64,000 nt of DNA from Holophagae bacterium (GCA_029263455.1 JAJCXM010000003.1:62001-126000), one strand, 5' to 3'. Positions 34,994 through 52,574 are shown, counted from the stretch's first letter. Notes: generated by a model not told the origin, from the sequence alone. Made by a program: numbers and translations.

Positions 34994-36264
34994 AAATCTT
35001 CCCGAATCCAACGTTTGGCTTTCAACTCGAATCGCGGGAGTTGGCCGTTTTCAACTTCTATGACTGGAATCCTAAGTGAAAAGGCCGATCTCAGACGATT
35101 CTCAAGGTCCTGCACCAGAGCGTGCCCGTTTGAAATGGAGGGTTCCAATTCGATTTCCAACTGTAATTCTGTCATCGAACCCTTATGACTAACACGTACA
35201 CGGTATTCTTCGATTCCACCTACTTGACGAACGACTTCATCGATCGCTGCTGGAAAAACGTTCACACCACGAACGACAACCATATCGTCGATGCGACTGA
35301 GTATGCCACCTCTTAGGGCAAGCGAGGAACACACAGCGGCCATGGGTTCAGCTTCTGCCTTTTCCACCAAATCACCGGTCCGATACCGAATGAGCGGCAT
35401 GGCATAGCGTTTCAATGTCGTCAGCACCAATTCACCGCGCTCGCCTTCGGCCACCGGCCGCAAGCTTTCTGGATCAACAATTTCAACAAGAAACGCCTTT
35501 TCAAGCACACGGAGCAGGTTCGTGTCCTTCGGCCAGGCGAACGAAACAGGACCCACTTCGGTCATGCCGTGATGGTCGACAATCTCGGCATTGGGCCAAA
35601 GCAAGCTTAATTGCTGACGTACAGCCGCAATGCTGCCACCAGCCTCGCCAGCCACAAAGATGCGTTTGACACTGTCTGTATCGACGCCGTCGTGCTTGGC
35701 TTGTTGACCCAACCTTAGAGCGTAGGTTGGCGTGAGACAAAGCACGGTAACTTGATGGGTTTCAATCAGAGCAGCGCGTGTTTTGGTGTCAAGTCCCCCA
35801 CCTGGTAGGCATAAGCAGCCTAGTTGAGTAGCGGCCTCGAATGCTGACCAAAAACCTAGGAAGGGACCAAAAGAAAAGCAAAACAAAGCGCGATCAGATG
35901 CGCTGACATCCCAGATCTTAAGTATCGTCCGCCACTGATCAAGAATATCTCGCCACGAATCATTTGTGTCCAACCACCGCATTGGCTGTCCGCTAGTGGC
36001 GCTGGTCTGATGGTAACGGGCATATTGATCAAATGGATACGTAAGGTTGGTGCCGTTTGGCTGGTGCTGCAATTGATCGTCGACCAATTCGTGCTTGTTA
36101 GTAAACGGAAGCTCAGCCAATAGGCTGGTTAAACCTTCTTTCTTAAGGTCTGAATTCGCCAGTTTCGAGGCGTAGAAGCGGTTGTTCGGCAAGATGTGCC
36201 GCAACAGATCACGCAGGGCGCGCTCATGATAGGCACGAAACGCAAGGCGAGCCTCTTCAGTCAT
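34990..36264 (-). CDS. PaaK-like aryl-CoA ligase (AMP-forming)
   Basis: A 424-residue adenylate-forming enzyme of the phenylacetate-CoA ligase branch. The P-loop-equivalent is TSATSGQPM, followed by HHGMTEVGP, PLIRYRTGDLV, RIDDMVVVRGVNVFPAAIDE (the PaaK C-terminal signature) and a catalytic-Lys C-terminus LPRFELKAKRWI. Enzymes of this branch activate aromatic acids as CoA thioesters or load carrier proteins. It sits in an operon with a chorismate-lyase-like and a halogenase-like gene, so a hydroxybenzoate is a plausible substrate (inference). The ATG overlaps the upstream membrane gene by 8 nt. Confidence 0.85.
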   Translation of the reverse strand: MTEEARLAFRAYHERALRDLLRHILPNNRFYASKLANSDLKKEGLTSLLAELPFTNKHELVDDQLQHQPNGTNLTYPFDQYARYHQTSATSGQPMRWLDTNDSWRDILDQWRTILKIWDVSASDRALFCFSFGPFLGFWSAFEAATQLGCLCLPGGGLDTKTRAALIETHQVTVLCLTPTYALRLGQQAKHDGVDTDSVKRIFVAGEAGGSIAAVRQQLSLLWPNAEIVDHHGMTEVGPVSFAWPKDTNLLRVLEKAFLVEIVDPESLRPVAEGERGELVLTTLKRYAMPLIRYRTGDLVEKAEAEPMAAVCSSLALRGGILSRIDDMVVVRGVNVFPAAIDEVVRQVGGIEEYRVRVSHKGSMTELQLEIELEPSISNGHALVQDLENRLRSAFSLRIPVIEVENGQLPRFELKAKRWIREDL

Positions 36265-36799
36265 GTGTGGCTTGATTCTGAATGCTCTGATGAACTTTCG
36301 CTGCGCCTGGTCCTGGCTTATACAGAGAAACCAGGCATCCGCCTAATGCGGCGAAGAGGATTCCTAAGAGAAACTGCCAACGTAACGAACCCCATCCGCC
36401 TGCTGGTGGATGTAACGAAATGGCCGTAATCGCGTTAACGATGGGCGCGCCAGCAAAGACAATCGCCATCACAACTGCGGGCGATCCTTTAGCACCAAAC
36501 GCAAGTAGCACAAAAAAGGCACCAATGGAGCCAACCAGTCCTGCAAAGAGGGACCAGATAACGCCCTTCATCGGGAACACCCAACTTGCGCCATTGAACC
36601 AGAGCACCAATGCGGAGCCAATCATAGCCGTCAGAAAATAGGCGATGCCAACGACAAAAAAGGCCTTATAGCGGCCATTGACGGGATCGGCCATGCCTAT
36701 TTGCCCGGTGTGCAGGGCGATGCCGTAAAAGCCCCAAGACAGAACTGTGACAAACGCGAATATTAACCACGTGTAACCTATAGGGGATGCATCACTCAT
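36257..36799 (-). CDS. DMT/EamA-like small membrane transporter
   Basis: A 180-residue protein with about five membrane helices, like half of an EamA/DMT transporter: TWLIFAFVTVLSWGFYGIAL, KGVIWSLFAGLVGSIGAFFVLLA and GGWGSLRWQFLLGILFAALG. ATG at 36799 with AGGAG upstream, overlapping the thioesterase stop. As the only small transporter in the aromatic-acid operon it may export or import the product or precursor. It could also work as a homodimer, as small DMT proteins do. Confidence 0.72.
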   Translation of the reverse strand: MSDASPIGYTWLIFAFVTVLSWGFYGIALHTGQIGMADPVNGRYKAFFVVGIAYFLTAMIGSALVLWFNGASWVFPMKGVIWSLFAGLVGSIGAFFVLLAFGAKGSPAVVMAIVFAGAPIVNAITAISLHPPAGGWGSLRWQFLLGILFAALGGCLVSLYKPGPGAAKVHQSIQNQATHD

Positions 36800-37232
36800 C
36801 AATTGACTCCTCAGTATTTCCGAACTTCATTAGGATTGACTTTAATTCCGCGGGGATTGTGACCGACTTCATCTTACCGTCTTTGAACTCGGCACACACA
36901 GCCACCACCTCACCTTCAGCGACCTGTTCGCCGCTAACAGCGTGGTTCATTAAGAATTTCAAACGTAAACTACGGTTGCCGACGCGCATCACTTTAACGT
37001 GAATATCGCATTCATCTTCAAACCGTAGCGGCGCACGAAAGGAACAGGACGCATTGACACGTGGCCAGCTAAGAACGTGTTGCTCAGCGTTCTCCATCAC
37101 GGAACGGCCTAGATGCCGAAACCAAGCATGTTCCGCGCGTTCCATAAACCGAAAATAATTGGAAAAGTGCAATAGACCTGCTGCATCGGTGTCGGCAAAC
37201 TCCACCCTTGTTCGGTAACTAAACAAATTCAT
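36792..37232 (-). CDS. Hotdog acyl-CoA thioesterase (4HBT family)
   Basis: A 146-residue thioesterase. The N-terminal FADTDAAGLLHFSNYFRFME carries the catalytic Asp of the 4-hydroxybenzoyl-CoA thioesterase/YbgC branch, followed by the long helix HAWFRHLGRSVM and the core ASCSFRAPLRFEDECDIH. It hydrolyses acyl- or aroyl-CoA. In this operon, with an aryl-CoA ligase and chorismate-lyase-like protein, a hydroxybenzoyl-CoA substrate is attractive, but YbgC-type enzymes also take aliphatic acyl-CoA. Confidence 0.85.
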   Translation of the reverse strand: MNLFSYRTRVEFADTDAAGLLHFSNYFRFMERAEHAWFRHLGRSVMENAEQHVLSWPRVNASCSFRAPLRFEDECDIHVKVMRVGNRSLRLKFLMNHAVSGEQVAEGEVVAVCAEFKDGKMKSVTIPAELKSILMKFGNTEESIDE

Positions 37233-37253
37233 TTATCCGTCCGTTGGCGTTGA

Positions 37254-38528
37254 TTATTCGGCCGCTAAACACGTGCGCGGATCTGTTGGTTTGCCATGAC
37301 TTAACTCGTCTGGTACCTCTGCGACTCGACGGACGGCTGCGAACAGAGACGAAAAATCCTTTTCCACATGTCCAATCAGACAATCGGTGAGGTCCCCTTC
37401 CAACTCAGGATTCTGTTTGACAAGACCTCTAAAACTAAATCCTTCATCGTAGAAAGCATAAACCAACTTACGCATTGCTTCCAATCCCGACCGCACTTGA
37501 CGGCTGTAGTTCTCGAATTGCTGGCTGCCTACGTTTCCAGAAGCTATGGCTTCGTCAACCGCGATGGCTGCTTTCTCGCCACCCCAAAAGGCAAGAAACA
37601 GACCAGACGAAAAGACAGGGTCCAAGAATGAGAAGGCATCACCTGTCAAAACCAAGCCATCCGTCGCACAATGCTTAGCGCGGTACGAAAAATCGGCCGT
37701 CACACTGTAAGGAGCGCAACGTGTACCACAAGCCAAGTGTTTTTGAATCCAGGGATTCTTTTTGATTTCGCGTTCAAAAATTTCGCCAGGATCTCTAGTG
37801 TCTGCATAGAGATAGTCTTTCTCGGCAACGACTCCTACGCTCACCTTGTTATCTGGAAGTGGGATATACCAGAACCACCCTTTTTCAGGTATATAAGCGA
37901 CCGTTGTCGCTGCTTCGTCAATCCCTTTGTCTCGCAGTGCACCTTCGTAATATGTCCAGATCACCACTTTCTTGAGCTTCGGATCACGTTCTGACCAGGC
38001 AAACTTTTTGATCGCAAACGAGTTTCTGCCACTGGCGTCAATAACCACGCTAGACGATACGTCGGCCGTTGATCCGTCAGCACGATCAACGCGTACGCCG
38101 ACAATCTTCTGGTCCTCCATCAAAAGATCACGAACGCGTTCGCCCTCAAAAACGTCCACACCTTGTTCTTTCGTATGATCGAGCAACATCTGATCGAATT
38201 CGCTACGGACCACTTGCCAAGTGGTTGAGGCCTCATCTTGCATGTGTTTGAAGAAATAGAATGGGCTAGAAACCCGGCCCGTTTCGGACACAAACTGAAC
38301 CGAATACTTCTTTGGGAATCGAGATGCTTTCATCTTTTCGATAAAGCCGATCCGCTGAAGCGGGTAATAACAGTATGGAATCATTGATTCGCCAACCCGG
38401 TAGCGCGGGAACTTCTCTTTCTCAAAAACGACGACAGAACGACCACGTTGCGCCAAAGCACAAGCTGCAGTTGCGCCAGCTGGTCCACCGCCAATAATGG
38501 CAACGTCGTATTTCGTCTTGAGATTCAT
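37254..38528 (-). CDS. Flavin-dependent halogenase-like FAD oxidoreductase
   Basis: A 424-residue FAD enzyme. GGGPAG (13-18) is the dinucleotide-binding loop. RYRVGESMIP (43-51) is the conserved block of the tryptophan/phenol-halogenase-like family. Lys73/Lys74 lie where the family has its catalytic Lys. The halogenase signature WxWxIP is complete as WFWYIP (218-223), followed by GDAFSFLDPVFSSGL (296-310). The length is typical of carrier-protein- or phenol-acting halogenases, shorter than Trp halogenases. Geranylgeranyl-reductase-like enzymes share parts of this pattern, so halogenation is inferred. AAGGAG precedes the ATG. It lies between the chorismate-lyase-like and thioesterase genes. 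Confidence 0.8.
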   Translation of the reverse strand: MNLKTKYDVAIIGGGPAGATAACALAQRGRSVVVFEKEKFPRYRVGESMIPYCYYPLQRIGFIEKMKASRFPKKYSVQFVSETGRVSSPFYFFKHMQDEASTTWQVVRSEFDQMLLDHTKEQGVDVFEGERVRDLLMEDQKIVGVRVDRADGSTADVSSSVVIDASGRNSFAIKKFAWSERDPKLKKVVIWTYYEGALRDKGIDEAATTVAYIPEKGWFWYIPLPDNKVSVGVVAEKDYLYADTRDPGEIFEREIKKNPWIQKHLACGTRCAPYSVTADFSYRAKHCATDGLVLTGDAFSFLDPVFSSGLFLAFWGGEKAAIAVDEAIASGNVGSQQFENYSRQVRSGLEAMRKLVYAFYDEGFSFRGLVKQNPELEGDLTDCLIGHVEKDFSSLFAAVRRVAEVPDELSHGKPTDPRTCLAAE

Positions 38529-38537
38529 GCAGTCTCC

Positions 38538-39077
38538 TTATACTTCCGGCAATATCTCAACCACGTCTGCCAGAACCGAGCCATCACCGCCCACCAAGCG
38601 GTTGAGGCGACCGTGCAATAAGGTTCCTGGCTTTTGCGCGAAGAGATCTGAAAGCATGGCGTCAGCTGACAGTGAAAAAAAAGCGATGGGGTGACTCACG
38701 AACTCAATGGCGTGATTCTTCAAAATGGTTCCAAGCGGAATGACACCCTCTGAAATTTCTAGCCTTGCCGTTTCGGGAAATGCAGACAGGCCAATGCGTA
38801 TCGCGCCATATTCGACCGGCTTACCAGAACTTGTCTTTAAGATAACTTCTCGGCGAATTTCATCCTCATCACGTTCAATACGTAATATGTCCAGCACAAT
38901 TGTGTCATCGTGAAATCTTTCAAGTACACCCGTCATATCCTGCTGATGGACAAGCATACTGCGATAGGGTTGTGGCAGTTCTCTCGCGGAACAAGGATGG
39001 GCATGAGGAAGATGAACGCCCATTTCGTCTCGAAAGTACTTAAGCACTTTGGGAAATGTCAAAGATTCGACCTTCAT
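38538..39077 (-). CDS. Chorismate-lyase-like protein
   Basis: A 179-residue protein I place in the chorismate lyase/UbiC-DUF98-like fold. Supporting features are RREVILKTSSGKPVEYGAIR, resembling the lyase R-x-V-x-L strand followed by the substrate-side A/G-x-x-x-I/L block, and EISEGVIPLGTIL, resembling the PLG-x-xL motif. Chorismate lyase makes 4-hydroxybenzoate and pyruvate. Overall similarity is remote. It is the first gene of the operon, ATG at 39077, nine nt before the halogenase-like gene. A chorismate-to-4-hydroxybenzoate role is inferred from both fold and context. Confidence 0.6.
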   Translation of the reverse strand: MKVESLTFPKVLKYFRDEMGVHLPHAHPCSARELPQPYRSMLVHQQDMTGVLERFHDDTIVLDILRIERDEDEIRREVILKTSSGKPVEYGAIRIGLSAFPETARLEISEGVIPLGTILKNHAIEFVSHPIAFFSLSADAMLSDLFAQKPGTLLHGRLNRLVGGDGSVLADVVEILPEV

Positions 39078-39190: not shown

Positions 39191-40837
39191 TCACTTTGCT
39201 CTTACGCGCACAATTTGAACGTTGACACCAAGCTCCAAAAGGAAATCATGCCAAATTCGCTGCGGCTCTTGAACGCGGTCGCCAGGGCCCTTCACCTCAA
39301 TGACCATGAACTCCTGCTCGTTCCAAACAACGAGATCTGGGAACCCTGATCTGAGGGATTGGTACTCGTCTAGAACCTGTCCGACCAATCGGATCAATTG
39401 CGAGCCATCCAAATGATTGATCCAACAAAGAAAGACTTCATTGGTCGCATCTGCAAAGCGCGTCAACCGACTATTTTCGTGGGCATGCTTCGCCAAAGTA
39501 CGACAGAAATAGGTGATCCGCTGCTCACGGGTCATGTTGATGATGCTCGCGGTCCAATGTGTCCAAATAGCGTGTCTACGTTGACAGAATCCGGGCGTTC
39601 CCAAATCGTTGGGACCAGATTGATAGGCATGATAAAAAGCGCCCTCACAATCCGCGTAAATGACGTCCCAGGCCAAAAAACCAACCAACGACTGGATATA
39701 AGCGTTTTCGGCGATGACACCCGCGTATCCTTTTGCGCGGTAATAATTCAGAACCCACGGCTCAATGTGAAGAGCTTCATCGTTCCAGATAAATTCCGCT
39801 TTGACAGCGGCGCGTTCACTTGCCTTATCCGCACTGATGCTCTGATCTTGGGGCGTCCGCACACCGAAGCGGCGGTTGATGTTCAAGCCGAGCTTGCGCT
39901 CTACCCGTTTCATTCGTTCCAAGAACCTCAATTGCTCACCACGCCGAGCAAAAATGTCTTTGGAGTCCGATAGATTCTTATAGGCATCACTTAAGAGTCC
40001 AAGTCGTTCTTGCAGTAACGTCAGCCTTTCTAGAGCCTTAACGCTTGAGCTACGCCCAAAACAGGCGACGTATAGATCAATCGCCTTGGCGTCGCCAACC
40101 TGTTTCTCCAGGCTCTTCAAGGCAAATAACCAACACCACAAAAGTGGTTTGGTAAAGGGTCGATCACTTTCAAATTGATGGTTGGCCTCTTGAATGATCA
40201 ATTCAGCTTGCTCAACATCGATGTCAGCCCGCAGCTCTGTACTTAACTGGAACCAATTGACATAGGCATCCAGACCAGCGCGCGATTTGAATTTTGAGCC
40301 AGCGGATAACGAATAACTTGGGTAATTGAGACGACCCAAATGCACCTTCACAAATTCGCTTAGGTCTTGAGCTGCATTGCCGAAATAGAGGCAGAAGAGT
40401 CGCCGAAAGAGATCCTTACCTTGTACCACCACCCAACTGCATTCTTCGATATGGGGTTGCAAAGTGGTCCAGTTCTCCTCCATCGCAGCGACAATCTCTT
40501 CTTTTCGTGCTCCAGGCATTTGTAGCCAGCGCCGTAGATCTGAAATAGGCAAGTGCCGCAGCACATCGCTGGCATTCTTGGCGGTGACAACTTGGGAAAT
40601 CAAACCCTCTTTGTTCAAACGCTGCCTGATTAACGCCGGTACAAGGTGTTTCTTTTCGCATAAGAAGGCAACGCCTTTGCGCTGGATCCACTTGACGTAA
40701 GGGGCTTGATATTCGGGACTAAGCTTTGTGAACCGATCAACCAAAGCGATTTCGTGATCACGCCACCAGCCAGAGCCACGTCTCCATACAGCGTTTAGAA
40801 CGTGCTTGAAGTTGGCTAAATAGTAAGGTTCTTCCAT
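39191..40837 (-). CDS. FAN1-type VRR-NUC nuclease
   Basis: A 548-residue protein ending in a VRR-NUC domain: GFPDLVVW (with the catalytic Asp), FMVIEVKGPGDRVQEPQ (Glu and Lys of the PD-(D/E)xK core) and WHDFLLELGVNVQIVRVR. The N-terminal part (YYLANFKHVLNAVWRRG onward) and overall size match bacterial FAN1, a structure-specific nuclease that unhooks DNA interstrand crosslinks. A helical TPR-like middle (about 200-330) also fits. ATG at 40837. It is upstream of, and on the same strand as, the halogenase-like operon but separated by 113 nt with its own regulatory repeat, so probably independent. Confidence 0.88.
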   Translation of the reverse strand: MEEPYYLANFKHVLNAVWRRGSGWWRDHEIALVDRFTKLSPEYQAPYVKWIQRKGVAFLCEKKHLVPALIRQRLNKEGLISQVVTAKNASDVLRHLPISDLRRWLQMPGARKEEIVAAMEENWTTLQPHIEECSWVVVQGKDLFRRLFCLYFGNAAQDLSEFVKVHLGRLNYPSYSLSAGSKFKSRAGLDAYVNWFQLSTELRADIDVEQAELIIQEANHQFESDRPFTKPLLWCWLFALKSLEKQVGDAKAIDLYVACFGRSSSVKALERLTLLQERLGLLSDAYKNLSDSKDIFARRGEQLRFLERMKRVERKLGLNINRRFGVRTPQDQSISADKASERAAVKAEFIWNDEALHIEPWVLNYYRAKGYAGVIAENAYIQSLVGFLAWDVIYADCEGAFYHAYQSGPNDLGTPGFCQRRHAIWTHWTASIINMTREQRITYFCRTLAKHAHENSRLTRFADATNEVFLCWINHLDGSQLIRLVGQVLDEYQSLRSGFPDLVVWNEQEFMVIEVKGPGDRVQEPQRIWHDFLLELGVNVQIVRVRAK

Positions 40838-40923: not shown

Positions 40924-41997
40924 TTATGAAAAATCCAAATCAGTTACGCCTAAACCTGGCTTTTCGGATGGAATCAACCAGCCATCTTTAAGACTGAACG
41001 CGCCTCGAGTTGGATCATCAATCAAATCCAAATGACCGTCTAGATCGGCATAGTGAATATTGGGGCCCGACAACGCGAAGTGCAGGCCAGCCGAAATGGA
41101 CAATTCACATTCATCCATACAACCCACCATCACAGGAATTCGGGCAACTCGGGCGATTGAATTGACACGCAGAGCTTCGGTGATTCCGCCCACCTTCATC
41201 AGTTTGATATTAACCAAATCGACTAGACCGTGACGAGCCAGCTGAAAAGCATCAAGCGTGCTCAACATGGCCTCGTCCGCCATGACCAGAACCGGGACAG
41301 CCTTGGTCACCTCACCCAGTTGCTGCTTCGCTTCTCTTGGGGTGGGTTGTTCCAAAACCTCAAGATCCACTTTGTCTATCCCCTTAACAAAGTGCACCGT
41401 CTCGCCTACCGAATAGCCTTGATTGGCATCGAAGCGCAATTCGATCTTTGGGCCCACGGCTTCTCGCAACTTGATCATGCGCTCAATGTCGGTGTTTACA
41501 TCGGCACCACCCTTGATTTTTAGGCACTGAAATCCCCGGTTGATCCAGTCACGTGCGCGCTCGAGTGTTTCCTGCACGTCACAAATACCTATGGTGACGC
41601 TGGTGCGAATTCGTCTTCGATGCCCGCCAAGCACGCGGTACAAAGGTAATCGCGCCTTTTTTGCGAGCAAATCATAGAGAGCGACATCGACGGCTGCACG
41701 TAACGAGGGCAATTCTTTGAGACTCTTGTCCAGCGGCGCGGTTAAGGCAGATCGGCGCAACCCGTCTCGACCCACAAATTTTGAGAGCACGTAAGCCTCA
41801 GCTCCGGCTATCACTTGTTCAGGTGTCTCGCCAGTGACTTCCAGGTCAGGTGCCGCGCAGCCTAGACCAACCAGTCCCTCTGACGTCTGAATACGAACCA
41901 CAAGATTACACGCAGTCGTAACCGTCTCGTAGGCAATCGTATATGGCTCAAGTAGCTTGAAATCTAATCGATGGATGGATACATGCGTAATTCTCAA
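40924..41997 (-). CDS. Dipeptide epimerase/DgcA-like enolase-superfamily enzyme
   Basis: A 357-residue enolase-superfamily enzyme of the mandelate-racemase-like, dipeptide epimerase branch. Catalytic KxK is CLKIKGGAD; metal ligands are in ELRFDANQG, LEVLEQPT and VMADEAM; the second Lys is in VNIKLMKVGG. Family members epimerise L-Ala-D/L-Glu, and close relatives (DgcA) racemise N-acetyl-glutamate. Neighbouring DUF1611 (DgcN-like) and MurL-like genes support a glutamate-type substrate. The start is a TTG at 41997, one nt after the upstream stop, with a poor ribosome site. Confidence 0.88.
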   Translation of the reverse strand: MRITHVSIHRLDFKLLEPYTIAYETVTTACNLVVRIQTSEGLVGLGCAAPDLEVTGETPEQVIAGAEAYVLSKFVGRDGLRRSALTAPLDKSLKELPSLRAAVDVALYDLLAKKARLPLYRVLGGHRRRIRTSVTIGICDVQETLERARDWINRGFQCLKIKGGADVNTDIERMIKLREAVGPKIELRFDANQGYSVGETVHFVKGIDKVDLEVLEQPTPREAKQQLGEVTKAVPVLVMADEAMLSTLDAFQLARHGLVDLVNIKLMKVGGITEALRVNSIARVARIPVMVGCMDECELSISAGLHFALSGPNIHYADLDGHLDLIDDPTRGAFSLKDGWLIPSEKPGLGVTDLDFS

Positions 41998-41998
41998 A

Positions 41999-44314
41999 CT
42001 AATAGCGTTTCTGATAAATTTCTTCGAGACTAATCGACTTTAGCTGTTCGATCATGGCCACTAGGTGAGCAATCATGATTTCCCACATACGACGACCTTT
42101 CTCTTCCGTGGCTTTAGAGGGATCGCCCATGACGCCATTTTCCGAGAGTGTTTTTGTGTGGGAAAACCAAGTTACGCCTCGCTGAGAAGAAAAATCCAAG
42201 TATTTGTTGGTGAAACAGGGTTCGTGAGGACGAATTTTGTCTTTACGCACCAAATGCGGACGTGTGGCCAATGCTGTCGAGGTCTCAAATTCGCCGGCAT
42301 GGACGTCATTAGGGGTTTCCACAAGAGCAAAAACATCCACATCACTTGTTTCACCGGAATCAACACACACGAACATACGAGTTTGACTATTAATCTTTTG
42401 CGCCGCGTAGTGCAGGGCGGGGTCATTCCCGCCATGACCATTGATGATGACTAGTTTCTTGATGCCATTGTGTGCAAGTGACAGACCAATATCTGTCACC
42501 ATTTGCACCAAAGCCTCGTGACTCACGCTGATGGTGCCCGCAAAGTCATCGTGATGGTAGGAAACACCATATGAAAGTAGTGGCAGAACCAGAGGTTTCG
42601 GGTCGCTACAGGCAGCCGCGACTCGTTCGGCTAAATAACCGGCGTCATAAGCATCAATATCCAACGGTAAATGAGGACCATGTTGCTCGATCGCGCCCAC
42701 GGGTAATATGGCGAGGTCCGTTACCTTGAGCCGTTCTTCCGCTTCTGGCCACGTCATTTCGCCCCATAAATGACCGTCCTTTCGACTGTCATCATGAGAA
42801 GGTGCGTCATGTTCAAAGGCGTACGGATCGTCTAATGTATCTTGTTTAAACAAGTCAACCGTCTTCCATGTCTTCCCTTGACGCACCATGCATCCCAAGG
42901 CATGTTCGAGCATTTGCTGGTAAAGCGGCCGACGGATGTCTCCGGGTACATCGGTCCATGGTGAACGATGCTTGTCAAAGCGAAGGTGCATCACCTCAGG
43001 ATAAGCTTTTCGTTGCGCTGGGGGAATCGCGTCTTTCGGCATCAGTCCTTTCTCAGTTAGTTGAAATAGAAGATGAGACGCACCCTCTTCTTCCTGTTTC
43101 AAACCGCCAGCGACAAGCGCCTTGAGACATGCCTCCACCGTTTCACGATCGTAGCCACACAACGCAGGGTCAACATCAATGGAAGACAGCATTCCCACAA
43201 TACGACGGCATTTTTCGCATCGCCCACAAGGGATGATCTTTTCGTCTTCTTGATGGGTTGCGTGACAAGATGTCTGCCAGGCCAAAAGGTCGGGATACCT
43301 TTTGGCGAGGATCACTTCTATGAGCATTTCCGAACAGGGTCTGAGTACGCTAAATTGACGGATTCCCCAACCCTTGGCCATGAAATAACGGCTCAGTTCA
43401 TGATCAAAAAATCGGCTCTGATCGTACAATCCTCCATAGTGTTTGATGCCATGGTAGGAAAGCGTCTCTGATGTATCGTATTCGTCGCCGATAACTAGAC
43501 GCCCTAATTTGTGCTTTTTCATGACTGGCAAAGCACCAAACAAGAAGACCGCCACGGTCCACAAACGGATAGGATAAATGTCCGCTCGCACGTCGGCGAA
43601 ATCTTCCCTTACAAAAGGCAGTTGGCGTAGCATCCAATTAAAGACCCGGTCCGAGTTACACCACACACGGTGAGTTGTATCTAAGTGTTTCAGGCCACGA
43701 TAGGCATTAAGCGCTGTGAACCAATGGCGCCCAGACTCATTGACGAAAACGGCATGCGGGTTGCTGTTCATTTCTCGTAATAGGCCATAGCTAAGCAAAC
43801 TGTCTTTGCCTCCGCTGGAAAGCACCACATGGCTACGATCGACCTTCCAAGGATCCCACGACAAATTATTGGTGCCACGCATCTCTGGAAACGTCAGCTT
43901 GGCGTTACAGTATGACTTCCGTAGCTCAGGCTCCAATTCCACACCCCGAATAAAAGGGTTGGGTTGTAACAGCTTCATCACCAGTATTTCGCGTGACGTG
44001 TTTTCGACAAAGTTACGTAAGAATCGCCGGTCCAACTGATCAAAAATGCCATGAAAGACGATCTCTCGACAAAAGAGACCATAGTTGAGGGCCACTTGAG
44101 CTGTCATCATGGCCGCCAGATTCTGTGATTGAGAATCCGTCGGATCAAACACGTCATTTTCAAAGCGGTAAATGAGTTCGGTGGAGGTTATCTTGTCACC
44201 TTGAAAAATGCGGTATTCGGTGGTGACACGTTGCTTTTCTAGCTTAATCGGACCCACTTCAATCTTATCAATGACCACCAAATCTTCGTGGCTTGTGATC
44301 TGCGTAACACTCAA
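41999..44314 (-). CDS. MurL-like PP-loop domain fused to creatininase-family amidohydrolase
   Basis: A 771-residue two-domain fusion. Residues of about 1-400 resemble MurL, the ATP-dependent UDP-MurNAc-L-Ala-L-Glu epimerase of Xanthomonas: PP-loop SSGGKDSLLS (166-175), VIGDEYDTSE, FSVLRPCSEMLIE and the Cys cluster CGRCEKC (363-369). Residues of about 520-771 are a creatininase/creatinine amidohydrolase domain with its metal-binding motifs GAIEQHGPHLPLDID (540-554) and INGHGGND (624-631). The TTG start at 44314 has GGAGG six nt upstream inside the DUF1611 gene. The linkage of an epimerase-type ATPase to an amidohydrolase is unusual, and the fusion appears intact. Confidence 0.82.
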   Translation of the reverse strand: MSVTQITSHEDLVVIDKIEVGPIKLEKQRVTTEYRIFQGDKITSTELIYRFENDVFDPTDSQSQNLAAMMTAQVALNYGLFCREIVFHGIFDQLDRRFLRNFVENTSREILVMKLLQPNPFIRGVELEPELRKSYCNAKLTFPEMRGTNNLSWDPWKVDRSHVVLSSGGKDSLLSYGLLREMNSNPHAVFVNESGRHWFTALNAYRGLKHLDTTHRVWCNSDRVFNWMLRQLPFVREDFADVRADIYPIRLWTVAVFLFGALPVMKKHKLGRLVIGDEYDTSETLSYHGIKHYGGLYDQSRFFDHELSRYFMAKGWGIRQFSVLRPCSEMLIEVILAKRYPDLLAWQTSCHATHQEDEKIIPCGRCEKCRRIVGMLSSIDVDPALCGYDRETVEACLKALVAGGLKQEEEGASHLLFQLTEKGLMPKDAIPPAQRKAYPEVMHLRFDKHRSPWTDVPGDIRRPLYQQMLEHALGCMVRQGKTWKTVDLFKQDTLDDPYAFEHDAPSHDDSRKDGHLWGEMTWPEAEERLKVTDLAILPVGAIEQHGPHLPLDIDAYDAGYLAERVAAACSDPKPLVLPLLSYGVSYHHDDFAGTISVSHEALVQMVTDIGLSLAHNGIKKLVIINGHGGNDPALHYAAQKINSQTRMFVCVDSGETSDVDVFALVETPNDVHAGEFETSTALATRPHLVRKDKIRPHEPCFTNKYLDFSSQRGVTWFSHTKTLSENGVMGDPSKATEEKGRRMWEIMIAHLVAMIEQLKSISLEEIYQKRY

Positions 44315-45396
44315 AGTATTCCTCCATTGCGGCTGTCTGCAATCTTTATCATTTCGGCGGCTAGACGGTCAGCGCCTTGCACCAATACATCCACCGTTGG
44401 CAGACCTGTCAACGTCTCCAAAGCTCGGCACCAAACACCTAATTCATTCAAGTCGAGTTGCTCGTGATTTAGAGTAATGGCCACAACGGGCGTACCCGAA
44501 ACCATTTCGACTGCCTCGATTTGACGCGGCAATGGATGCATCGCAAATCCGGGGAATCCATCATATTCTTTGCGAGCGGGAGCGTGTTGCATGATGACCG
44601 CATGTGGTCGTCCTGCAGCCAGGATCTCAAATCCGCCCGGATAGGCGGGGTTCAATAAACTGCCCTGCCCTTCAATAACGATGAAGTCAGGCTTATGTTC
44701 GTCCCAAGCCGACCAAACCGCGTGTTCGATTTCACCAGACACAAAGTCATTGACCAAGGAATCAAGTACCAGCGAGTGTTTGGCACCCTGAAGCCAGGCC
44801 GTTTGCCCAGTTCCAATCATCTGTACGCTGCGACCCGCTTTCTCAAGTGATTCCACCAATCGCCAGGCAGTTGTGCGCTTCCCGACTGCCGAATCAGTTC
44901 CCAAAACGGCAATCCTAAATGAGGTGACATCTTCGATCTTTCCGCTAAAAAAATGGAGATCCGATCGGTCAGGCGGCTTACGAATATCTCGTATTCGAAC
45001 ACCCGCCCGCTTAGCTTCATCTTGTAGCGTCGGGTCATCGGTCAAAAAGTCGTGTAATCCGCAATCAACATGGAGTCCGCGCTTGATGGCTTGCGAGACA
45101 TCATTTCTTGCCTCGTCGCCTAAACGACCTCCATCCGGTGCTAGTCCAACCACAAAGTGGCTAGCCTTTCGGCTGGAGCTCTCGGCAAAAGCCAGTGCCT
45201 CATCAAGACTTGCGACAATAGGAATCGATTTTTTCGCTCCATACAAAACTTCACCGGCATCTTTGCCACTAGCCTGTCGGTCAATCACGCATAAGACGTC
45301 ATATCGTCTGGTAAAACGCACCAAGCCATGCGCCGTTTTCCCATTTGGGGTTAAAAACGCATCTTGGCAATAAACAATAGCTGATCCTTCTGTCAT
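44311..45396 (-). CDS. DUF1611 P-loop protein (DgcN-like)
   Basis: A 361-residue DUF1611 protein. The N-terminal Rossmann-like half (to about 150) is followed by a P-loop NTPase-like half with GTDSAVGKRTTAWRLVE, QMIGTGQTAWLQGAKHS, DFIVIEGQGSLLNPAYPG and ILAAGRPHAVIMQHAPARKE. The best-characterised member, DgcN, acetylates D-glutamate to start a catabolic route whose racemase, DgcA, is like the epimerase two genes downstream. Start ATG overlaps the upstream PLP-enzyme stop (ATGA). I infer an amino-acid acyltransferase role. Confidence 0.82.
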   Translation of the reverse strand: MTEGSAIVYCQDAFLTPNGKTAHGLVRFTRRYDVLCVIDRQASGKDAGEVLYGAKKSIPIVASLDEALAFAESSSRKASHFVVGLAPDGGRLGDEARNDVSQAIKRGLHVDCGLHDFLTDDPTLQDEAKRAGVRIRDIRKPPDRSDLHFFSGKIEDVTSFRIAVLGTDSAVGKRTTAWRLVESLEKAGRSVQMIGTGQTAWLQGAKHSLVLDSLVNDFVSGEIEHAVWSAWDEHKPDFIVIEGQGSLLNPAYPGGFEILAAGRPHAVIMQHAPARKEYDGFPGFAMHPLPRQIEAVEMVSGTPVVAITLNHEQLDLNELGVWCRALETLTGLPTVDVLVQGADRLAAEMIKIADSRNGGIL

Positions 45397-46484
45397 GATC
45401 GTCTCCCTGTAAGTATGGCTACATAACGGTCGTTGGCGAGTGGCTCTTTCTTGTGTTTGTTCATAAGCGCAATCAGTCCCGCCGTTGACGCAGGCAAGCA
45501 GTTGATACCCTCTTTATCGCGGACGAGTCGAGAAAACTGCGTCATTGCGCGGTCGCTGGCATCCGCCGCCCAGCCATTTGTGTCGCGAAGAGCAGCCAAA
45601 ACAAGATCACCATCGATGGAATGCCAATTGATGAGCGGCTCGTTGATTGGCGTCTCGCGAATAGATGCTGGATTCAAGTCTAAACATTGGCTCGCGCCCT
45701 TGATAAAGGCCTGCACGATGGGGTTCTTACGATAGCTGGAGCCGGCAACAAAACGCGGCATACGTGACGTCTTACCACGCCTAAAAAGGCTCAGGAAACC
45801 GCGGTAAATGCCAACCAGCGTCGTACCATTTGAGACAGGAACGGCCACAATTGCGGGCGCATCACGCAGGTCGTCGTATATCTCGTGCGCTATTTGGCCA
45901 TAGGCCCGAAGCTGTAGCGCGGTATTGGCGCCACCCGGATTGGCGTCATAAAACTCGTCTTTTAGTGCGCGTTCGCGTGAAGCAACAACCGTCGCCTCGT
46001 AATCTCCAGGAACACGTTCAACGATGGCACCAAGTTCCGTCATTTCATGCAAGCGCTTGGTGTGATAACGATCTGGAATCATCACCAAACAGCGCAATCC
46101 GCAAAGCGAAGCCGACAAGGCCAACGCCACCCCAAAGTTTCCGCACGTAGCAACAGTAATGGTGTCGTAGCCCCGCCTTAAAGCGTCCATACATTGAGCA
46201 AATGCAATACGATCCTTTTGGGTGCCAGTAGGATTGCCACCTTCGAATTTTAGATAGATCTGTCGGATCCCAAATTCGCGCTCCATGTTTCTTGCGCGAG
46301 CGAGTGACGTATCGCCAACTTCAGAATCGATAATATCTTCAAATGCTTCAATACGATTGACCAATTCCAAATTAACGTCACGCGCGGTCTCGCGTTGACG
46401 ATCAATGTCGCCCAGCTCAACCTGTGAGATTGAGGCATCTTGAATAAAATGGCCTGCCGCCTGGTCCTCATGATCTTGAGCCAT
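45393..46484 (-). CDS. PLP-dependent threonine-synthase-like enzyme
   Basis: A 363-residue fold-type II PLP enzyme of the threonine synthase/ornithine-cyclase-adjacent branch. The PLP-binding Lys is in LKFEGGNPTGTQKDRIA, the phosphate-binding region is TVATCGNFGVALA, and SNGTTLVGIYRGF follows. Threonine-synthase-like enzymes also catalyse amino-acid eliminations and racemisations. ATG at 46484 with AAGGAG five nt upstream; the frame opens six nt earlier at a GTG. It is the first gene of the DUF1611/MurL-creatininase/epimerase operon, so it may act on the same amino acid as its partners. Confidence 0.82.
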   Translation of the reverse strand: MAQDHEDQAAGHFIQDASISQVELGDIDRQRETARDVNLELVNRIEAFEDIIDSEVGDTSLARARNMEREFGIRQIYLKFEGGNPTGTQKDRIAFAQCMDALRRGYDTITVATCGNFGVALALSASLCGLRCLVMIPDRYHTKRLHEMTELGAIVERVPGDYEATVVASRERALKDEFYDANPGGANTALQLRAYGQIAHEIYDDLRDAPAIVAVPVSNGTTLVGIYRGFLSLFRRGKTSRMPRFVAGSSYRKNPIVQAFIKGASQCLDLNPASIRETPINEPLINWHSIDGDLVLAALRDTNGWAADASDRAMTQFSRLVRDKEGINCLPASTAGLIALMNKHKKEPLANDRYVAILTGRRS

Positions 46485-46742
46485 CTTCACTCCTTAGACC
46501 CGTTGTTCAGTTGTTAATCAACGCACCCTTTATGTTTGCCAATGGCGAAACGAAGAGCTTGTTAGCGCCAATATCAACTTTTTTCAAGTCAGTTGCTATC
46601 TATGCTATCCCAATCATTATAAGCGAATTAGCATGCGCCAAAGCGCTCATCTTTTGCTGGCCAGGGAGCCTTTTTGGAAATTTTGTCATGTCCTGGTGCA
46701 GTGAAAAATGGCGATATTAGCATAGCTCCAGTTCATAAATGC

Positions 46743-46781: not shown

Positions 46782-46857
46782 GCCCCTATAGCTCAGCTGG
46801 AAGAGCAACGGTCTTGTAAACCGTAGGTCACCTGTTCGATCCGGGTTGGGGGCACCA
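46782..46857 (+). tRNA. tRNA-Thr(TGT)
   Basis: A complete cloverleaf of 76 nt. The acceptor stem GCCCCTA pairs with TGGGGGC, discriminator A, and CCA is encoded. The D-arm is GCTC/GAGC, the anticodon arm ACGGT/ACCGT with loop CTTGTAA, giving anticodon TGT (Thr, ACA). The T-arm is ACCTG/CGGGT around TTCGATC. It is preceded by a near-consensus promoter. Confidence 0.95.
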
Positions 46858-47031: not shown

Positions 47032-49596
47032 CTAACGAGCTGGTATTTGTGTATCGACACATTCGACCAAATCGATCACTGATTGCTCTGGCCATTGAGC
47101 GATCGTGCTATCTAAATCACAGCCGTCGCTCGAGCATGGCGTACTGTGATAGACACGGATGTCATCGATGTTCCAACCAACCCCACTAACCGTAGCATCG
47201 CAACCAAAACGCCAACGAAACTGAACATCCATTCCATTAAAATCTTGTAGGTCAATCTGAACTAATTCCCAATCCAAATTGTCTCCAGACCACGCCATTC
47301 TTCCCGGCAAAGGCACGCTGCCACCCGAAACTAGGGTTGAGTTGTAGCCTGCCAATTGGAAGCGGCCCGAATTAGCAGGAATACTGCCGCCATTTCCGGC
47401 CAGAATATCAAGCCAAGTCGATCCCGAATCGGCCGAATACTCTAAGACACCCCCATCAAAATTGGCTTCCGAATCTATTCGATGCCAGAACTCCAGAAGC
47501 GCGGCAGAAGCCGCAGGTATAGAGATCGCCGTTCCAATAACCAACATTTGGTCCTTCACCGTGGCTTCATCGGATACAAACCATGAATTAGACGGCGAAT
47601 GGCTGTTACTAGATACGATGATCCAGGGGTTTGTCGACATGTTTGCCGGCCCCTGGTCGGTCACCCAGATGCCTAGGCCACTTTCGACGTCGTCTTCGAA
47701 ATGGGCCACGCTTGGACCTGTGGCGAAGTCTGATGCTTCATTCAAGTTTTGATCCTCGTTTCCAGACAAATGAGGTCCAGAACCATTACCCGTATCGTCC
47801 TCCGCACGCACAATATAGAAGTAGACAACGCCCTCCTGAACATTTGTGTCCAGGTAACTTGATTGGATTAGGCCGCTGACGATTAAATTACCTAAATTGG
47901 GATCAAAAACCGAGGTTTCTGACCGATAAACGTTGTACACCAAATCAGAGCCGCAATTGGCCACTGCGTCGTCCCAATCTAATTCCAAGGTACAAGACGG
48001 CGAGTACGCGTTTGATACCGTCAAGTTAGTTGGCGAACTAGGGGCAATCGTACACAGTCCCGTCGCCGTTGCATCGGCGCAATTACTATCAACTGACTCG
48101 CATGAGGTACCCAAATCAAAGGCGCGCACTTGGTAGGCATAATTGGACCCACCAGACACATCAAAATCAGTATACGAACTCGACGGATGATCGCTGGCTA
48201 TTAAATTCCAATCGCTTTGTGGACAGGGGCCAAAAGCACGGTAGATGTTGAAACTGGCGCTGCCATCCACCGGTACCGTCCAGCTAAGATCTATTTGATT
48301 GTCACCATTGGCCACCACAATGAGTCCCGTCGCAGGGTTAAGCGTCTGGCATAACGCACAATTTGGTATGTTGGCTCCCAATTCAGCGATCACCGCCTCA
48401 ATAGGAACGGCACGGTTCGGATCGTCACCACCTCCTCCAGTCGAACAGGATGCATCGCCTTGACAATGATGAAGTGCAACGACGCGGTGATCGGCGTAAG
48501 CTAATACGGGCGAACCGGAAGATCCACCTCGGGTATCGGCCCAATACCCCACATCACTTGCGCCTCCGAAACAAGCCGTTTCAGTGAGACTGACAACGGT
48601 TGGAAAGCCACTTGTGTCTTCAGGGTAGCTGGACTCCATGGCAAGCCGTTTTCCCCAACCAGCAGGATGCTGGGGAATATAGATTCGCTCACCTAACACA
48701 GCTCCTGAGTTACGTAACTGCAAATAGCCATAGACGCTGACTAGGTCTGTATTTGAGGCGACTGACGTATCCGGGATAACCAGTGCAAAATCTAGCTCGG
48801 CATCCACTTGAACAAGCGTACCGCCTGTGGCTTCAATCGTGCCGGAACACGCCAGTGTCGAGTTACAATTCGTCTCGCAATCTGCGCCTTCCGCCATGAA
48901 TTCAAAATCGATATCGTTGAGCTCACTCTGAGACCCAATACAGTGTTGATTCGTCATCACATGACCTTCACAGCCGATCAACCAACCTGTGCAATGAGCG
49001 TTTCCGTTCAACGTCAGTCGCGTGACCGTGCGGGACTTATCGTAGGCTACAGGTTCTGAAACTTGATAACATTTGGCTTCCAGGGTGTCGTCCGTTGTGC
49101 ATATTGAACGATGATGGCTAGCGGGTTCTGGCAGATTCATTTCTTCGCCGAAACCCATGTCCCAAAATTGCTGGATTTCAGAATCGCTGTAGCCGCGCCC
49201 GTAGAAATCGATATCGAAGCCGTATCCTGGCTCGCCAGATACGTTGTAAAACTCGATGATAGCCATATCGCCTTTAAGATGAGTAGCGAAGAAGCCGTCC
49301 TTTGAATTACCCAGGTTATGCCTGCCTAATCCTTGGTAGGTCCAATGTTGATCACCGTCGAAGGATCGAATAACGACAAAGTCACCGGGCGCCAGCTCAA
49401 AACGGTTGAAATGAATGGCAATGTAAGTAGCCTGTGGGTAATAGACAACTTCTTTCATCACGAGGATCGGATTCGAGGCTGCGGGTTTGGCGTAAGGATG
49501 TTCAGTAGCAAGAACATGAGGAACGTGCTCACCTATCGTAATAGGTTGTCCCCATGCCAAGAATGCAAAAAACGCAATCAGACCGACTCGAATCAT
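47032..49596 (-). CDS. Secreted trypsin-like protease with FnIII and C-terminal jelly-roll
   Basis: An 854-residue secreted serine protease. The signal peptide ends near AWGQ. After an N-terminal beta-rich prodomain (about 20-160), the trypsin-like domain carries the triad His218 (TNQHC), Asp269 (ELDFALV) and Ser360 (GGSSGSPV), with several Cys pairs. Two FnIII-like modules follow (about 415-600), then a jelly-roll (SWFVSDEATVKDQ, GGVLEYS, WSGDNLDW, FRWRFGCD, GVGWNIDDI), a Cys linker and the C-terminal tail AQWPEQSVIDLVECVD. The same architecture and length occur in the gene at 55.9 kb. Probably extracellular protein degradation. Confidence 0.88.
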   Translation of the reverse strand: MIRVGLIAFFAFLAWGQPITIGEHVPHVLATEHPYAKPAASNPILVMKEVVYYPQATYIAIHFNRFELAPGDFVVIRSFDGDQHWTYQGLGRHNLGNSKDGFFATHLKGDMAIIEFYNVSGEPGYGFDIDFYGRGYSDSEIQQFWDMGFGEEMNLPEPASHHRSICTTDDTLEAKCYQVSEPVAYDKSRTVTRLTLNGNAHCTGWLIGCEGHVMTNQHCIGSQSELNDIDFEFMAEGADCETNCNSTLACSGTIEATGGTLVQVDAELDFALVIPDTSVASNTDLVSVYGYLQLRNSGAVLGERIYIPQHPAGWGKRLAMESSYPEDTSGFPTVVSLTETACFGGASDVGYWADTRGGSSGSPVLAYADHRVVALHHCQGDASCSTGGGGDDPNRAVPIEAVIAELGANIPNCALCQTLNPATGLIVVANGDNQIDLSWTVPVDGSASFNIYRAFGPCPQSDWNLIASDHPSSSYTDFDVSGGSNYAYQVRAFDLGTSCESVDSNCADATATGLCTIAPSSPTNLTVSNAYSPSCTLELDWDDAVANCGSDLVYNVYRSETSVFDPNLGNLIVSGLIQSSYLDTNVQEGVVYFYIVRAEDDTGNGSGPHLSGNEDQNLNEASDFATGPSVAHFEDDVESGLGIWVTDQGPANMSTNPWIIVSSNSHSPSNSWFVSDEATVKDQMLVIGTAISIPAASAALLEFWHRIDSEANFDGGVLEYSADSGSTWLDILAGNGGSIPANSGRFQLAGYNSTLVSGGSVPLPGRMAWSGDNLDWELVQIDLQDFNGMDVQFRWRFGCDATVSGVGWNIDDIRVYHSTPCSSDGCDLDSTIAQWPEQSVIDLVECVDTQIPAR

Positions 49597-49754: not shown

Positions 49755-52574
49755 CTAATCTAGTTGTGCCATGTCCAACCTGCGCATATCGTTGACAAAA
49801 GAAATTTTGAGCTTAGCAATATCTGGATAACTCGCGGGAAGCTGATCGACCCATTGGTGATAGATCGCTCTAGATTCGCTCTCATTCCCAGAACGAGCCA
49901 AGATTCGCGCATAGGTACAATGAGCTAGAGCCGTTCGCCAATGATTGTCACCGACAGTAAATGACATGGTCTGCGTGGCCTCTCGCGCGTATTCCAAGGC
50001 ACTCTTGTTCTGATTCATCCCTAGCATTACTTCGGCGAGATTCATGAGCGTTAAGCCCGTCAACCAGTGGCTGCCCAACAATTTCCTGCGTACTTCTAGC
50101 GCTTCGCGCAATTGCATTTCAGAGGCAGGCCAGTTTTCAACGGTTTGATACAGACGTCCTAACGCATATCTACTTGACGCCGTGGCTGGATGATCGCAGC
50201 CCAGCCCCCGAACACGTATAAATAGTGCCTGTTGTAAATACTCGCCAGCTTCTTCAACTCTCCCCTGCTGACGCAAATTGTCTCCCAATTGATGGAATGC
50301 TTCCCCATTGAATGTGTGTTCGGGAGTCAATACATCACGATTTATGGTGATCGCTTCTCTTAGTAGGGTTTCCGCGCGCTGTAACCCGTCTTCTCCAGAT
50401 TGTACCAAGGCGAGATTGACCAAGACACGCGACACACGGTAATTGTTGTTTCCGTATAGGTTCCTATAGATCGATAACGATTCTTCAAATGCTTCCGAGG
50501 CCAGTTCTGGACGACCGACATCATTAAGTAAGTTGGCAAGATTGTTCAAGCTATTCGCGACCAACGGGTGTTTTTCTGGCAATATTCGACGTCTCAAGTC
50601 CAATGCATCGCGGTAATAATGCTCCGCGGCGGACACTTGGCCTTGAGCCCAAAGCACGGCACCCAAATTATTCATTGCTTGGGCCAATAGCGGGTGGTCG
50701 GTTGGCAACGCGGCTTGGCGCAATGCATATGCTTCGCGCGCGGCGGCTTCGGCGTCTTCGTACCGACCTAAAGCATAGTTAAGCTCAGTCAGTGTCGATA
50801 TGTCATCAGCCAATTCGATGTTGGTTATGAATCCCATACGCAGTGAAATGGCTTGATTAATTTCCACCACAGCGTCAGCCAAATTGCCTGATTCGCCATG
50901 GAGTCGTCCTCGCTGCATCAATGCTTCCGCGGTACGTGGATCCGTTGAACCCCACAATCTAGAACGAATTCGATAGGCTTCATCGACCGCGACGAGTCCG
51001 TCCTCAAATGCACCGCTCGATTCAACGAACCTAGACGCCAATAACAAGCTCTCAGCAATGCCGACCTCATCATTGAGCTGACGCCTCATGGCAAGAGACT
51101 CCAACACCAAACGCTCAGATTCTTTATGGGCACCTAAGCGAAAACAGATCAAAGCCAATGAATGTTGAAAAGCTGCTCGGGTTTCGGGATCATCCTCTAG
51201 GGTTGAAAGCAGGATCGAAGCCTGTTCCATCAATGTTATTGAACTAACCTTTTCTTCAGCTGAGTATGGATCAGCGAGATCAAATATCTTGGTGACCAGT
51301 TCTGTCACACGTTCGTATCGGTGCATCGCACTACGGGCTTGTTGCTCCTGCATTTGAGCGATGCGAGCATGTTTTTGGGCTCGTAAAGCGAATCCACAGA
51401 TTGCCAATATCGCCAGCGTAACAAAGGTCGTCATTGTCGGCCGGCGTCGAACCCATTTCCAGCTCCGGCCCAAGAAGCCAAGTGATCGTGCTCGGATCGG
51501 CCTGCCGTCAAGGTAACGTTCGAGATCGTCAGCAAGCGCGTCAACGGATGCGTATCTGTCCCGAGACTCGTATTCAAGCGCTTTTGCCGCAATTACATCC
51601 AGGTCACCCTGTAACACGCGTTGCAAGGCTGTAACTCCATCGTGAGACTTGACACGACCAGCTGTTAGATTCTGACTCATCAACTGTGCGTCCTGGATTC
51701 GCAAACGCCTCGCTGCCTCATTGACAGGAAGTCCCGCCAGTTCGTGTGGTCGACGCCCGCATAGAATTTCAAATAAAACGACACCGAGCGAATACACATC
51801 AGTCAGGGTGGTTATCGCGCCTCCTAGCAATTGTTCGGGGCTAGCATAATTGCGCGTCAGAACGCGTTCTCCCTCTTCAGTGAGGTCGTGCGCGTCGACC
51901 AATTGTTTGGCAATTCCAAAATCCAACAACACAAGGCGACCTGATCCATCAACCAAAATATTGCCGGGTTTCAAATCTCTGTGTACGATCAAATGCCGAT
52001 GGGCATGTGCAACAACGGCACAAATATTCAAAAACAACTTGATGCGTTTTTTAACCGATGCCTTGGATCTGTCGCAGTATTCCGTAATCGTTATACCGTC
52101 TATGAATTCCATGACGATGTATGGGCGACCGTCATTTAAATGATCGACTCTTTCTACCTTAACGATCGATCGATGTTCAAGCCGATCAAGTACTTCTGAC
52201 TCAAACTCAAATCTAAGCAACGCCGATGAATTTACATACTCAGCCCTTAGAACCTTGATGGCAACCGGCTGAGATGGGTCAGCGTCTGGATAAGCGAGGT
52301 ACACCGTGCTCATTCCACCACGACCGATAACTCCGGCGATTCGGTAACCGGAAACTTCAGGAGGATCCAGCCGCGGAACCAAGATTGGTGTATTCAAGAA
52401 ACCGCCGGACTCATAATCCGCCTCAATTAGATCTAATACAGCTTGGTGCAGTGACTGATCGTCAGCAGTTGCTTGGTCAATATAGGTAAGGCGCTGCGAC
52501 GCCGGTAACTCAATGGCAGATTCGAAAAGCTCCTGCGCGCGTCTCGCTTCCAGCGCTTTCATATTGTGACTCAT
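49755..52574 (-). CDS. Transmembrane Ser/Thr protein kinase with TPR sensor array
   Basis: A 939-residue PknB-type kinase. G-loop IGRGGMSTVYLA (83-94), catalytic Lys107, HRDLKPGN (198-205) and DFG (218-220) are all intact, so it should be active. A membrane helix (TFVTLAILAICGFAL, about 382-400) separates the cytoplasmic kinase from a large region of ten or more tetratricopeptide repeats such as LAQAMNNLGAVLWAQGQ and HPLVANSLNNLANLLNDVGR, probably extracytoplasmic. Kinase-TPR fusions of this kind are common in Acidobacteriota. It is divergent from the repeat-domain protein and 1.5 kb from an ECF sigma gene, suggesting a shared signalling locus. Confidence 0.92.
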   Translation of the reverse strand: MSHNMKALEARRAQELFESAIELPASQRLTYIDQATADDQSLHQAVLDLIEADYESGGFLNTPILVPRLDPPEVSGYRIAGVIGRGGMSTVYLAYPDADPSQPVAIKVLRAEYVNSSALLRFEFESEVLDRLEHRSIVKVERVDHLNDGRPYIVMEFIDGITITEYCDRSKASVKKRIKLFLNICAVVAHAHRHLIVHRDLKPGNILVDGSGRLVLLDFGIAKQLVDAHDLTEEGERVLTRNYASPEQLLGGAITTLTDVYSLGVVLFEILCGRRPHELAGLPVNEAARRLRIQDAQLMSQNLTAGRVKSHDGVTALQRVLQGDLDVIAAKALEYESRDRYASVDALADDLERYLDGRPIRARSLGFLGRSWKWVRRRPTMTTFVTLAILAICGFALRAQKHARIAQMQEQQARSAMHRYERVTELVTKIFDLADPYSAEEKVSSITLMEQASILLSTLEDDPETRAAFQHSLALICFRLGAHKESERLVLESLAMRRQLNDEVGIAESLLLASRFVESSGAFEDGLVAVDEAYRIRSRLWGSTDPRTAEALMQRGRLHGESGNLADAVVEINQAISLRMGFITNIELADDISTLTELNYALGRYEDAEAAAREAYALRQAALPTDHPLLAQAMNNLGAVLWAQGQVSAAEHYYRDALDLRRRILPEKHPLVANSLNNLANLLNDVGRPELASEAFEESLSIYRNLYGNNNYRVSRVLVNLALVQSGEDGLQRAETLLREAITINRDVLTPEHTFNGEAFHQLGDNLRQQGRVEEAGEYLQQALFIRVRGLGCDHPATASSRYALGRLYQTVENWPASEMQLREALEVRRKLLGSHWLTGLTLMNLAEVMLGMNQNKSALEYAREATQTMSFTVGDNHWRTALAHCTYARILARSGNESESRAIYHQWVDQLPASYPDIAKLKISFVNDMRRLDMAQLD

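Follow-up and report, generated by a model that had tools for sequence, protein, structure and literature searches.

The locus described here raises the question of what a bacterium makes with four tightly coupled genes that bring together a pyridoxal phosphate (PLP) enzyme of the PALP fold, a DUF1611 protein, a fusion of a PP-loop domain to a creatininase-family amidohydrolase, and a dipeptide epimerase of the enolase superfamily. These genes lie on the minus strand, from 46490 to 40924, of a 64-kb stretch of DNA from a Holophagae bacterium (GCA_029263455.1, JAJCXM010000003.1:62001-126000), hereafter the window. Comparison across genomes indicates that they are a real, sporadically distributed pathway operon, and we judge its product somewhat more likely to be something other than a glutamate derivative than to be one. 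As for the nature of this product, our tentative proposal is a small, dipeptide-like metabolite that stays inside the cell, carries an inverted (D or epimerised) residue other than glutamate and serves most likely as a solute in osmotic or ion balance.

Conservation carries the case for the operon itself. Among 84,980 species genomes scanned, 112 relatives of the PP-loop half were found, and 80 of these loci, from more than a dozen phyla including Bacteroidota, Acidobacteriota, Thermodesulfobacteriota, Gemmatimonadota, Myxococcota, Planctomycetota, Ignavibacteriota and Latescibacterota, were kept for comparison. The order PALP - DUF1611 - PP-loop - creatininase - epimerase is common to most of the 80, and conservation of the catalytic motifs across the operon family is 97% or higher, so that the arrangement is not a matter of chance. 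Where the flanks were sufficient (56 loci), all four partners of the PP-loop part are present in 43, with the creatininase part in 55, PALP and DUF1611 in 50 each and the epimerase in 47. An initial annotation of the window had described four tightly coupled genes and asked whether they stay together in related genomes; they do so across many phyla, and the open reading frames, domains and junctions (4-nt overlaps at 45393-45396 and 44311-44314, and a 1-nt gap at 41998) lie where it located them, its outer boundary at 46484 being an ATG inside the PALP gene, which a GTG start extends to 46490. It had also regarded the pathway as unrecognised, which agrees with our failure to find anything relevant on DUF1611 combined with creatininase, dipeptide epimerase and threonine synthase in the open-licence literature, a search from which a description may have escaped. 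Furthermore, the pairwise-distance matrices of the five parts correlate with one another (rho 0.43-0.79, none of 300 permutations being as high), and the median identity per gene across phyla is 58-63%, a degree of conservation that argues that the product matters to the cells retaining the operon.

Most lineages have the PP-loop and creatininase parts in a single protein; in one nested Bacteroidota clade (Lewinella, Flavobacteriaceae) and in three isolated cases from metagenome bins they are separate, adjacent genes. This alternation between fusion and adjacency is evidence that the two parts act together. The PP-loop protein occurs in only 4 of 120 related genomes and in 8 of 396 genomes of the phylum, was not found in the one other genome of the source genus that was searched, and is single-copy in the 6.25-Mb source genome. 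Spread by plasmids was considered and rejected, as the tblastn matches listed against PLSDB concern only the creatininase half and no record covers 80% of the query.

Examination of the individual enzymes shows that the PALP enzyme is a family of its own. Its Pfam match (2.8e-50) is accompanied by a score of 418.6 bits (cut-off 266) against the NCBIfam model NF004996 (PRK06381), named "threonine synthase", and since all of 9 carrier genomes but none of 14 control genomes encode a protein exceeding that cut-off, the model seems to describe mainly the enzyme of this operon. The protein falls below the cut-off of the ThrC model TIGR00260 (85.6 vs 167.1 bits), a canonical ThrC is encoded elsewhere in 9 of 9 carriers (332.7 bits in the source genome), and the NSVNPYR motif of solved threonine synthases becomes DANPGGAN. 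A role in threonine synthesis is thus rejected by the separate ThrC and, given that NF004996 tracks the operon carriers and that the motif is replaced, the label "threonine synthase" is probably a misannotation.

The PP-loop half has no Pfam match even at E < 10, including to PF06508 (QueC). In 4 of 4 members tested, the best sequence match is to the NCBIfam model for MurL (best E 4.9e-6), with scores of 17.7 bits (the window protein) and 18.8 bits against an equivalog cut-off of 700 bits. Indeed, a profile of 54 fusions aligned by hhalign with a MurL homolog (probability 94.5, E 8e-8, 264 co-linear columns) in an alignment that takes in the YDQS motif and sets CGRCEKC against SC..CGSCSKC, whereas two QueC proteins compared in the same way gave no global match. 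C350 and the three CGRCEKC cysteines probably coordinate a metal, in a four-Cys site like those of QueC and MurL. In fold, the nearest solved protein to the AlphaFold model of the fusion (predicted local distance difference test, pLDDT, 86.7) according to VIA-align is QatC (9y02, Z 14.3 over 314 residues), Cap9 (9nto) reaching Z 13.8 and QueC (2pg3) Z 12.8, which corresponds to a QueC-like fold; a separate model of the PP-loop half built from four sequences (pLDDT 70.2) was poor and was not used. Judged from sequence, then, the initial annotation was right at the superfamily level in calling this half MurL-like, and we regard it as a distant member of the MurL superfamily to which MurL function should not be extended. 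Whether it would match a different ATP-pyrophosphatase family, as was then asked, is partly answered, the sequence being nearest to MurL and the fold nearest, among solved proteins, to QatC. A review of the QueC family makes no mention of MurL, creatininase or epimerase (PMC13329287). Whatever the operon makes, it shows that members of the MurL superfamily very probably act outside peptidoglycan metabolism as well.

The amidohydrolase domain fused to this half is a clear creatininase relative (PF02633, 248 vs a cut-off of 31.3 bits; creatininase fold, Z 27.8) with conserved residues E543, H545, D554, H627 and E677. It lies below the cut-offs both of the nearest curated NCBIfam model, MftE (156.2 vs 172 bits), and of the model for creatininase proper (108.6 vs 235 bits).

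The epimerase has full-length homologs in the PDB (3rit, 2e-71; 3jva; 1jpm; E from 2e-71 to 1e-59) and conserves K160/K162, D190, E216, D241 and K265. The KxK lysines are present in 60 of 60 family members and the DxD in 58 of 58, which together with the metal ligands identifies a dipeptide epimerase of the AEE type; in AEEs, the DxD binds the free amine of the dipeptide as an ammonium clamp. Glu occupies position 24 in 58 of 60 members, Asp position 51 in 60 of 60 and His position 322 in 58 of 58. In the Bacillus subtilis enzyme YkfB (1jpm), position 24 is an Arg, which presumably contacts the Glu side chain of the substrate; 3rit, which we take to be an epimerase of cationic dipeptides, also has Arg24, so that residue 24 alone is insufficient to fix specificity. 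The DUF1611 protein combines a Rossmann-like N domain with a P-loop domain (Walker A GTDSAVGKRT), and its relatives in the PDB are 2g0t, 2obn and 7xrj, the last of which we believe to be DgcN.

How could these enzymes work together? Gene order, conservation, folds, catalytic motifs and neighbours are direct observations, and from the chemistry of the families we infer the substrates, the order of steps, the product and the physiology. By this analogy, the PALP enzyme would form a non-standard amino acid through replacement on an activated serine or homoserine, on which the DUF1611 protein would build an amide bond, in the way DgcN N-acylates D-Glu. The epimerase, having kept the clamp for a free N-terminal amine, might then invert the C-terminal residue. 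The MurL-like domain would adenylate a carboxylate (ATP to AMP and pyrophosphate) in a one-way step leading either to epimerisation, as in MurL, or to amide formation, as in QueC or Cap9, and the fused MftE-like amidohydrolase would finally free or rearrange the product. Synthesis is favoured over catabolism because the operon has two ATP-type enzymes and because, in the operon neighbourhoods, no transporter or regulator belongs to the conserved set. The proposal is further supported by the loci with all partners, the correlated divergence, the intact motifs and the distinctness of the PALP family.

The osmotic part of this proposal comes from the neighbours. MscS, DUF2179 membrane proteins (of the DUF5698 and YitT types), CorA, MgtE and SLC12-type transporters recur in the flanks. 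With expectations taken from genome-wide counts in 13 carriers and applied to 0.765 Mb of operon flanks, 14 MscS genes were found against 1.03 expected (about 14-fold, P 6e-12) and 13 DUF2179-type genes against 0.13 (about 100-fold, P 5e-22), figures that are suggestive, as the P values assume independence, the families were chosen after looking and the loci are partly related. In four genomes (G126, G127, G128 and G130), the sole DUF2179 gene sits in the operon locus. Among the 80 loci, all 11 named isolates are, as we understand, marine, and the carriers as a whole, though distantly related, are for the most part bacteria of the sea or of sediments. Mechanosensitive channels are release valves for compatible solutes (PMC5924519) and MscS is enriched beside the operon, which is why we read the product as osmotic; together, the MscS and DUF2179 enrichments are suggestive of osmotic or ion balance.

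Besides the caveat attached to these P values, several points weigh against our proposal. A recurrent neighbour family (at least one) is found in 31 of 84 loci and none in the remainder, neither an MscS nor a DUF2179 gene flanks the operon in the window, and some metagenome carriers come from mines, groundwater or a spring, so that salinity is not universal. Furthermore, DUF1611 and/or the epimerase are absent from some loci, where the corresponding reactions may be dispensable or provided from another site, and the assignment of substrates and product is a prediction and unproven. If the osmotic reading were true, the operon would add a new class to the compatible solutes of marine and sediment bacteria. 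Taken to its furthest, this reading would mean an unrecognised pathway, distributed through transfer or loss over a dozen phyla from sediments and the sea, whose product would be a new compatible solute of the epimerised-dipeptide type. In it, a MurL-like enzyme physically joined to an amidohydrolase would use ATP to drive peptide epimerisation or amide synthesis away from the cell-wall pathway; this ensemble may hold, but we would not yet expect it.

The same enzymology would be compatible with another small peptide metabolite devoid of osmotic role, such as a metallophore, a redox or thiol cofactor, or a signalling or antibiotic dipeptide. The sporadic distribution in the relatives and the phylum resembles that of specialised metabolism, and the presence of CorA and MgtE nearby could point to divalent metals; however, the operon has no conserved exporter, receptor or resistance gene next to it, and the MscS and DUF2179 enrichment would be left unexplained. 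We see this as a possible but doubtful alternative.

The initial annotation had proposed a pathway for a glutamyl peptide, D-Glu or a muropeptide fragment. In this reading, DUF1611 and the epimerase would work as the DgcN/DgcA pair does on D-Glu, and the PP-loop half would act on a peptide ending in Glu. The pairing of DUF1611 with an enolase-type racemase, the MurL-like half and the DxD of a dipeptide epimerase speak in its favour. Nevertheless, every glutamate equivalog model is far from reached: DgcN gives 150 vs 480 bits with the operon DUF1611 protein, and with the epimerase DgcA gives 158 vs 400 bits and the L-Ala-D/L-Glu epimerase model 235 vs 500 bits. Furthermore, the epimerase has Glu24 in place of Arg24, no peptide transporter or peptidoglycan gene is conserved beside the operon, and 11 of 15 carrier genomes, that of the source bacterium included, encode a bona fide MurI that scores above its cut-off. 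In these carriers, the operon is thus not needed for D-Glu supply, and a role in providing D-Glu to peptidoglycan was rejected. From MurI, the DgcN/DgcA scores and Glu24, glutamate or muropeptide metabolism is disfavoured and we hold it to be unlikely.

Catabolic salvage, converting D-containing dipeptides into L-amino acids, is more improbable still. Free-standing epimerase-DUF1611 operons of two genes exist elsewhere in two carrier genomes (L102:4943-7174 and L103:5730-7908, about 40% identical to the window genes), and the L103 pair lies near peptide-transporter-like and peptidase-like genes (names read from their sequences), as salvage would have it. But these pairs have Lys24 and Ser322 where the operon has Glu24 and His322, and they are a separate pathway module; two ATP-dependent-type enzymes and a PLP enzyme would be a costly equipment for salvage, and no transporter is conserved. 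That such pairs (in G125 and G131) complement operons devoid of DUF1611 and epimerase is possible, and we do not claim it because their epimerases have Lys24.

Control by a riboswitch was rejected, Rfam reporting only tRNAs in the window and in seven operon loci. A precursor peptide of a ribosomally synthesised and post-translationally modified product was rejected, as no small open reading frame is conserved within 700 nt upstream of PALP beyond closely related genomes, and so was phage defence, PADLOC matches being at chance level only (QueC, E 0.025; Cas5a, E 0.062). Protein modification, in which the QueC/QatC-like domain would attach a small molecule to the N-terminus of a protein, much as Cap9 joins deazaguanine to an N-terminal glycine (PMC13279940), is very improbable despite QatC and Cap9 being the nearest solved folds, since no small protein or precursor is conserved upstream, no defence family exceeds chance and the sequence profile is nearer to MurL than to QueC.

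The features of the operon are collected in the table below. Its gene set being defined and some of its carriers being in culture (Maribacter, Flexithrix, Desulfosarcina), the operon lends itself to a direct test of function.

Table. Genes, domains and motifs of the operon, in window coordinates
Feature	Position	Strand	Remarks
PALP-fold PLP enzyme, first gene	45393-46490	-	GTG start; ATG at 46484 possible
DUF1611 protein	44311-45396	-	PF07755 4.4e-60 and N-domain PF17396 2.5e-24 (Pfam)
PP-loop/creatininase fusion, 771 aa	41999-44314	-	TTG start; AlphaFold pLDDT 86.7
PP-loop half, residues 14-431, N-terminal beta/alpha domain and PP-loop core	43022-44275	-	Fold alignment, hhalign
PP-loop SGGKDS, residues 167-172	43799-43816	-	At least 97% conserved except D171
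CGRCEKC, residues 363-369	43208-43228	-	C350, C363, C366 and C369 at least 97% conserved
Creatininase-family amidohydrolase domain, residues 519-755, NGHGGN branch	42050-42760	-	PF02633 1.1e-73
Dipeptide epimerase, enolase superfamily, AEE type	40924-41997	-	TTG start; MR_MLE_C 7.3e-49
Epimerase DxD motif, D318-L-D320	41038-41046	-	58/58 sequences covering the region
Epimerase Glu24 codon	41926-41928	-	Replaces Arg24 of the B. subtilis Ala-Glu epimerase

Around the operon, a FAN1/VRR-NUC nuclease gene (39191-40837) begins 86 bp downstream of the epimerase on the same strand; it was rejected as a member, as it does not recur among the neighbour families of other operon loci. A tRNA gene (46782-46854, plus strand) lies some 290 bp before the start of the operon and, given the sporadic distribution of the operon, is a possible insertion site. 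Further upstream, on the strand of the operon, are a trypsin-like protease with fibronectin-type repeats (47032-49596) and a Ser/Thr kinase with tetratricopeptide-like repeats (49755-52574), both named from their sequences. On the other side, a minus-strand run (34990-39077) encodes a PaaK-like AMP ligase, a short membrane protein, a YbgC/4HBT-type thioesterase, a CmlS-like flavin-dependent (FAD) halogenase or oxidoreductase (207.6 bits vs a cut-off of 900) and a 179-aa protein with no Pfam match, and looks like an uncharacterised biosynthetic cluster of aromatic or polyene type. In other genomes, four loci (L078, L079, L081 and L085) have two genes specific to Flavobacteriaceae (about 970 and 420 aa, same strand) either immediately upstream of the operon region or within it, and a RimK-like ligase, a small ATP-dependent protease-like protein and an AstE/aspartoacylase-like gene, again named from sequence, are found near the operon of G100 (L008:4058-6614).

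Set beside known systems, each enzyme combines a clear likeness with a clear departure. The PALP enzyme shares with threonine synthases the fold and the PLP lysine (K92) and differs by its DANPGGAN motif and by its occurrence in carriers that hold a true ThrC. Residues 63-379 of the fusion are co-linear with the MurL homolog, through the N-terminal domain, the GGKD loop, YxxS/F, FSxLRxxxE and the SC..CGxCxKC cysteines, whereas the operon protein is joined to an amidohydrolase, scores far below the MurL cut-off and belongs to carriers that retain MurI. QatC, Cap9 and QueC have the same fold, QatC being aligned over the entire N-terminal half, but identity is 12%, PF06508 is not matched and the operon has no QatB/CdnD-type partner. 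The amidohydrolase domain has the fold of creatininase and, as its nearest curated model, the mycofactocin peptidase MftE, yet it is below both cut-offs, is fused to a PP-loop enzyme and was seen with no mycofactocin partner genes. As in the DgcN/DgcA system, a DUF1611 protein, here aligning to 7xrj, adjoins an enolase-superfamily racemase; the operon proteins are far below the equivalog cut-offs, the epimerase pocket is not of the Glu type and three more enzyme functions are encoded. Finally, the operon epimerase keeps all the KxK, metal-ligand and DxD residues of the dipeptide epimerases 3rit, 3jva and 1jpm, while E24, D51 and H322 are specific to the epimerases of this operon.

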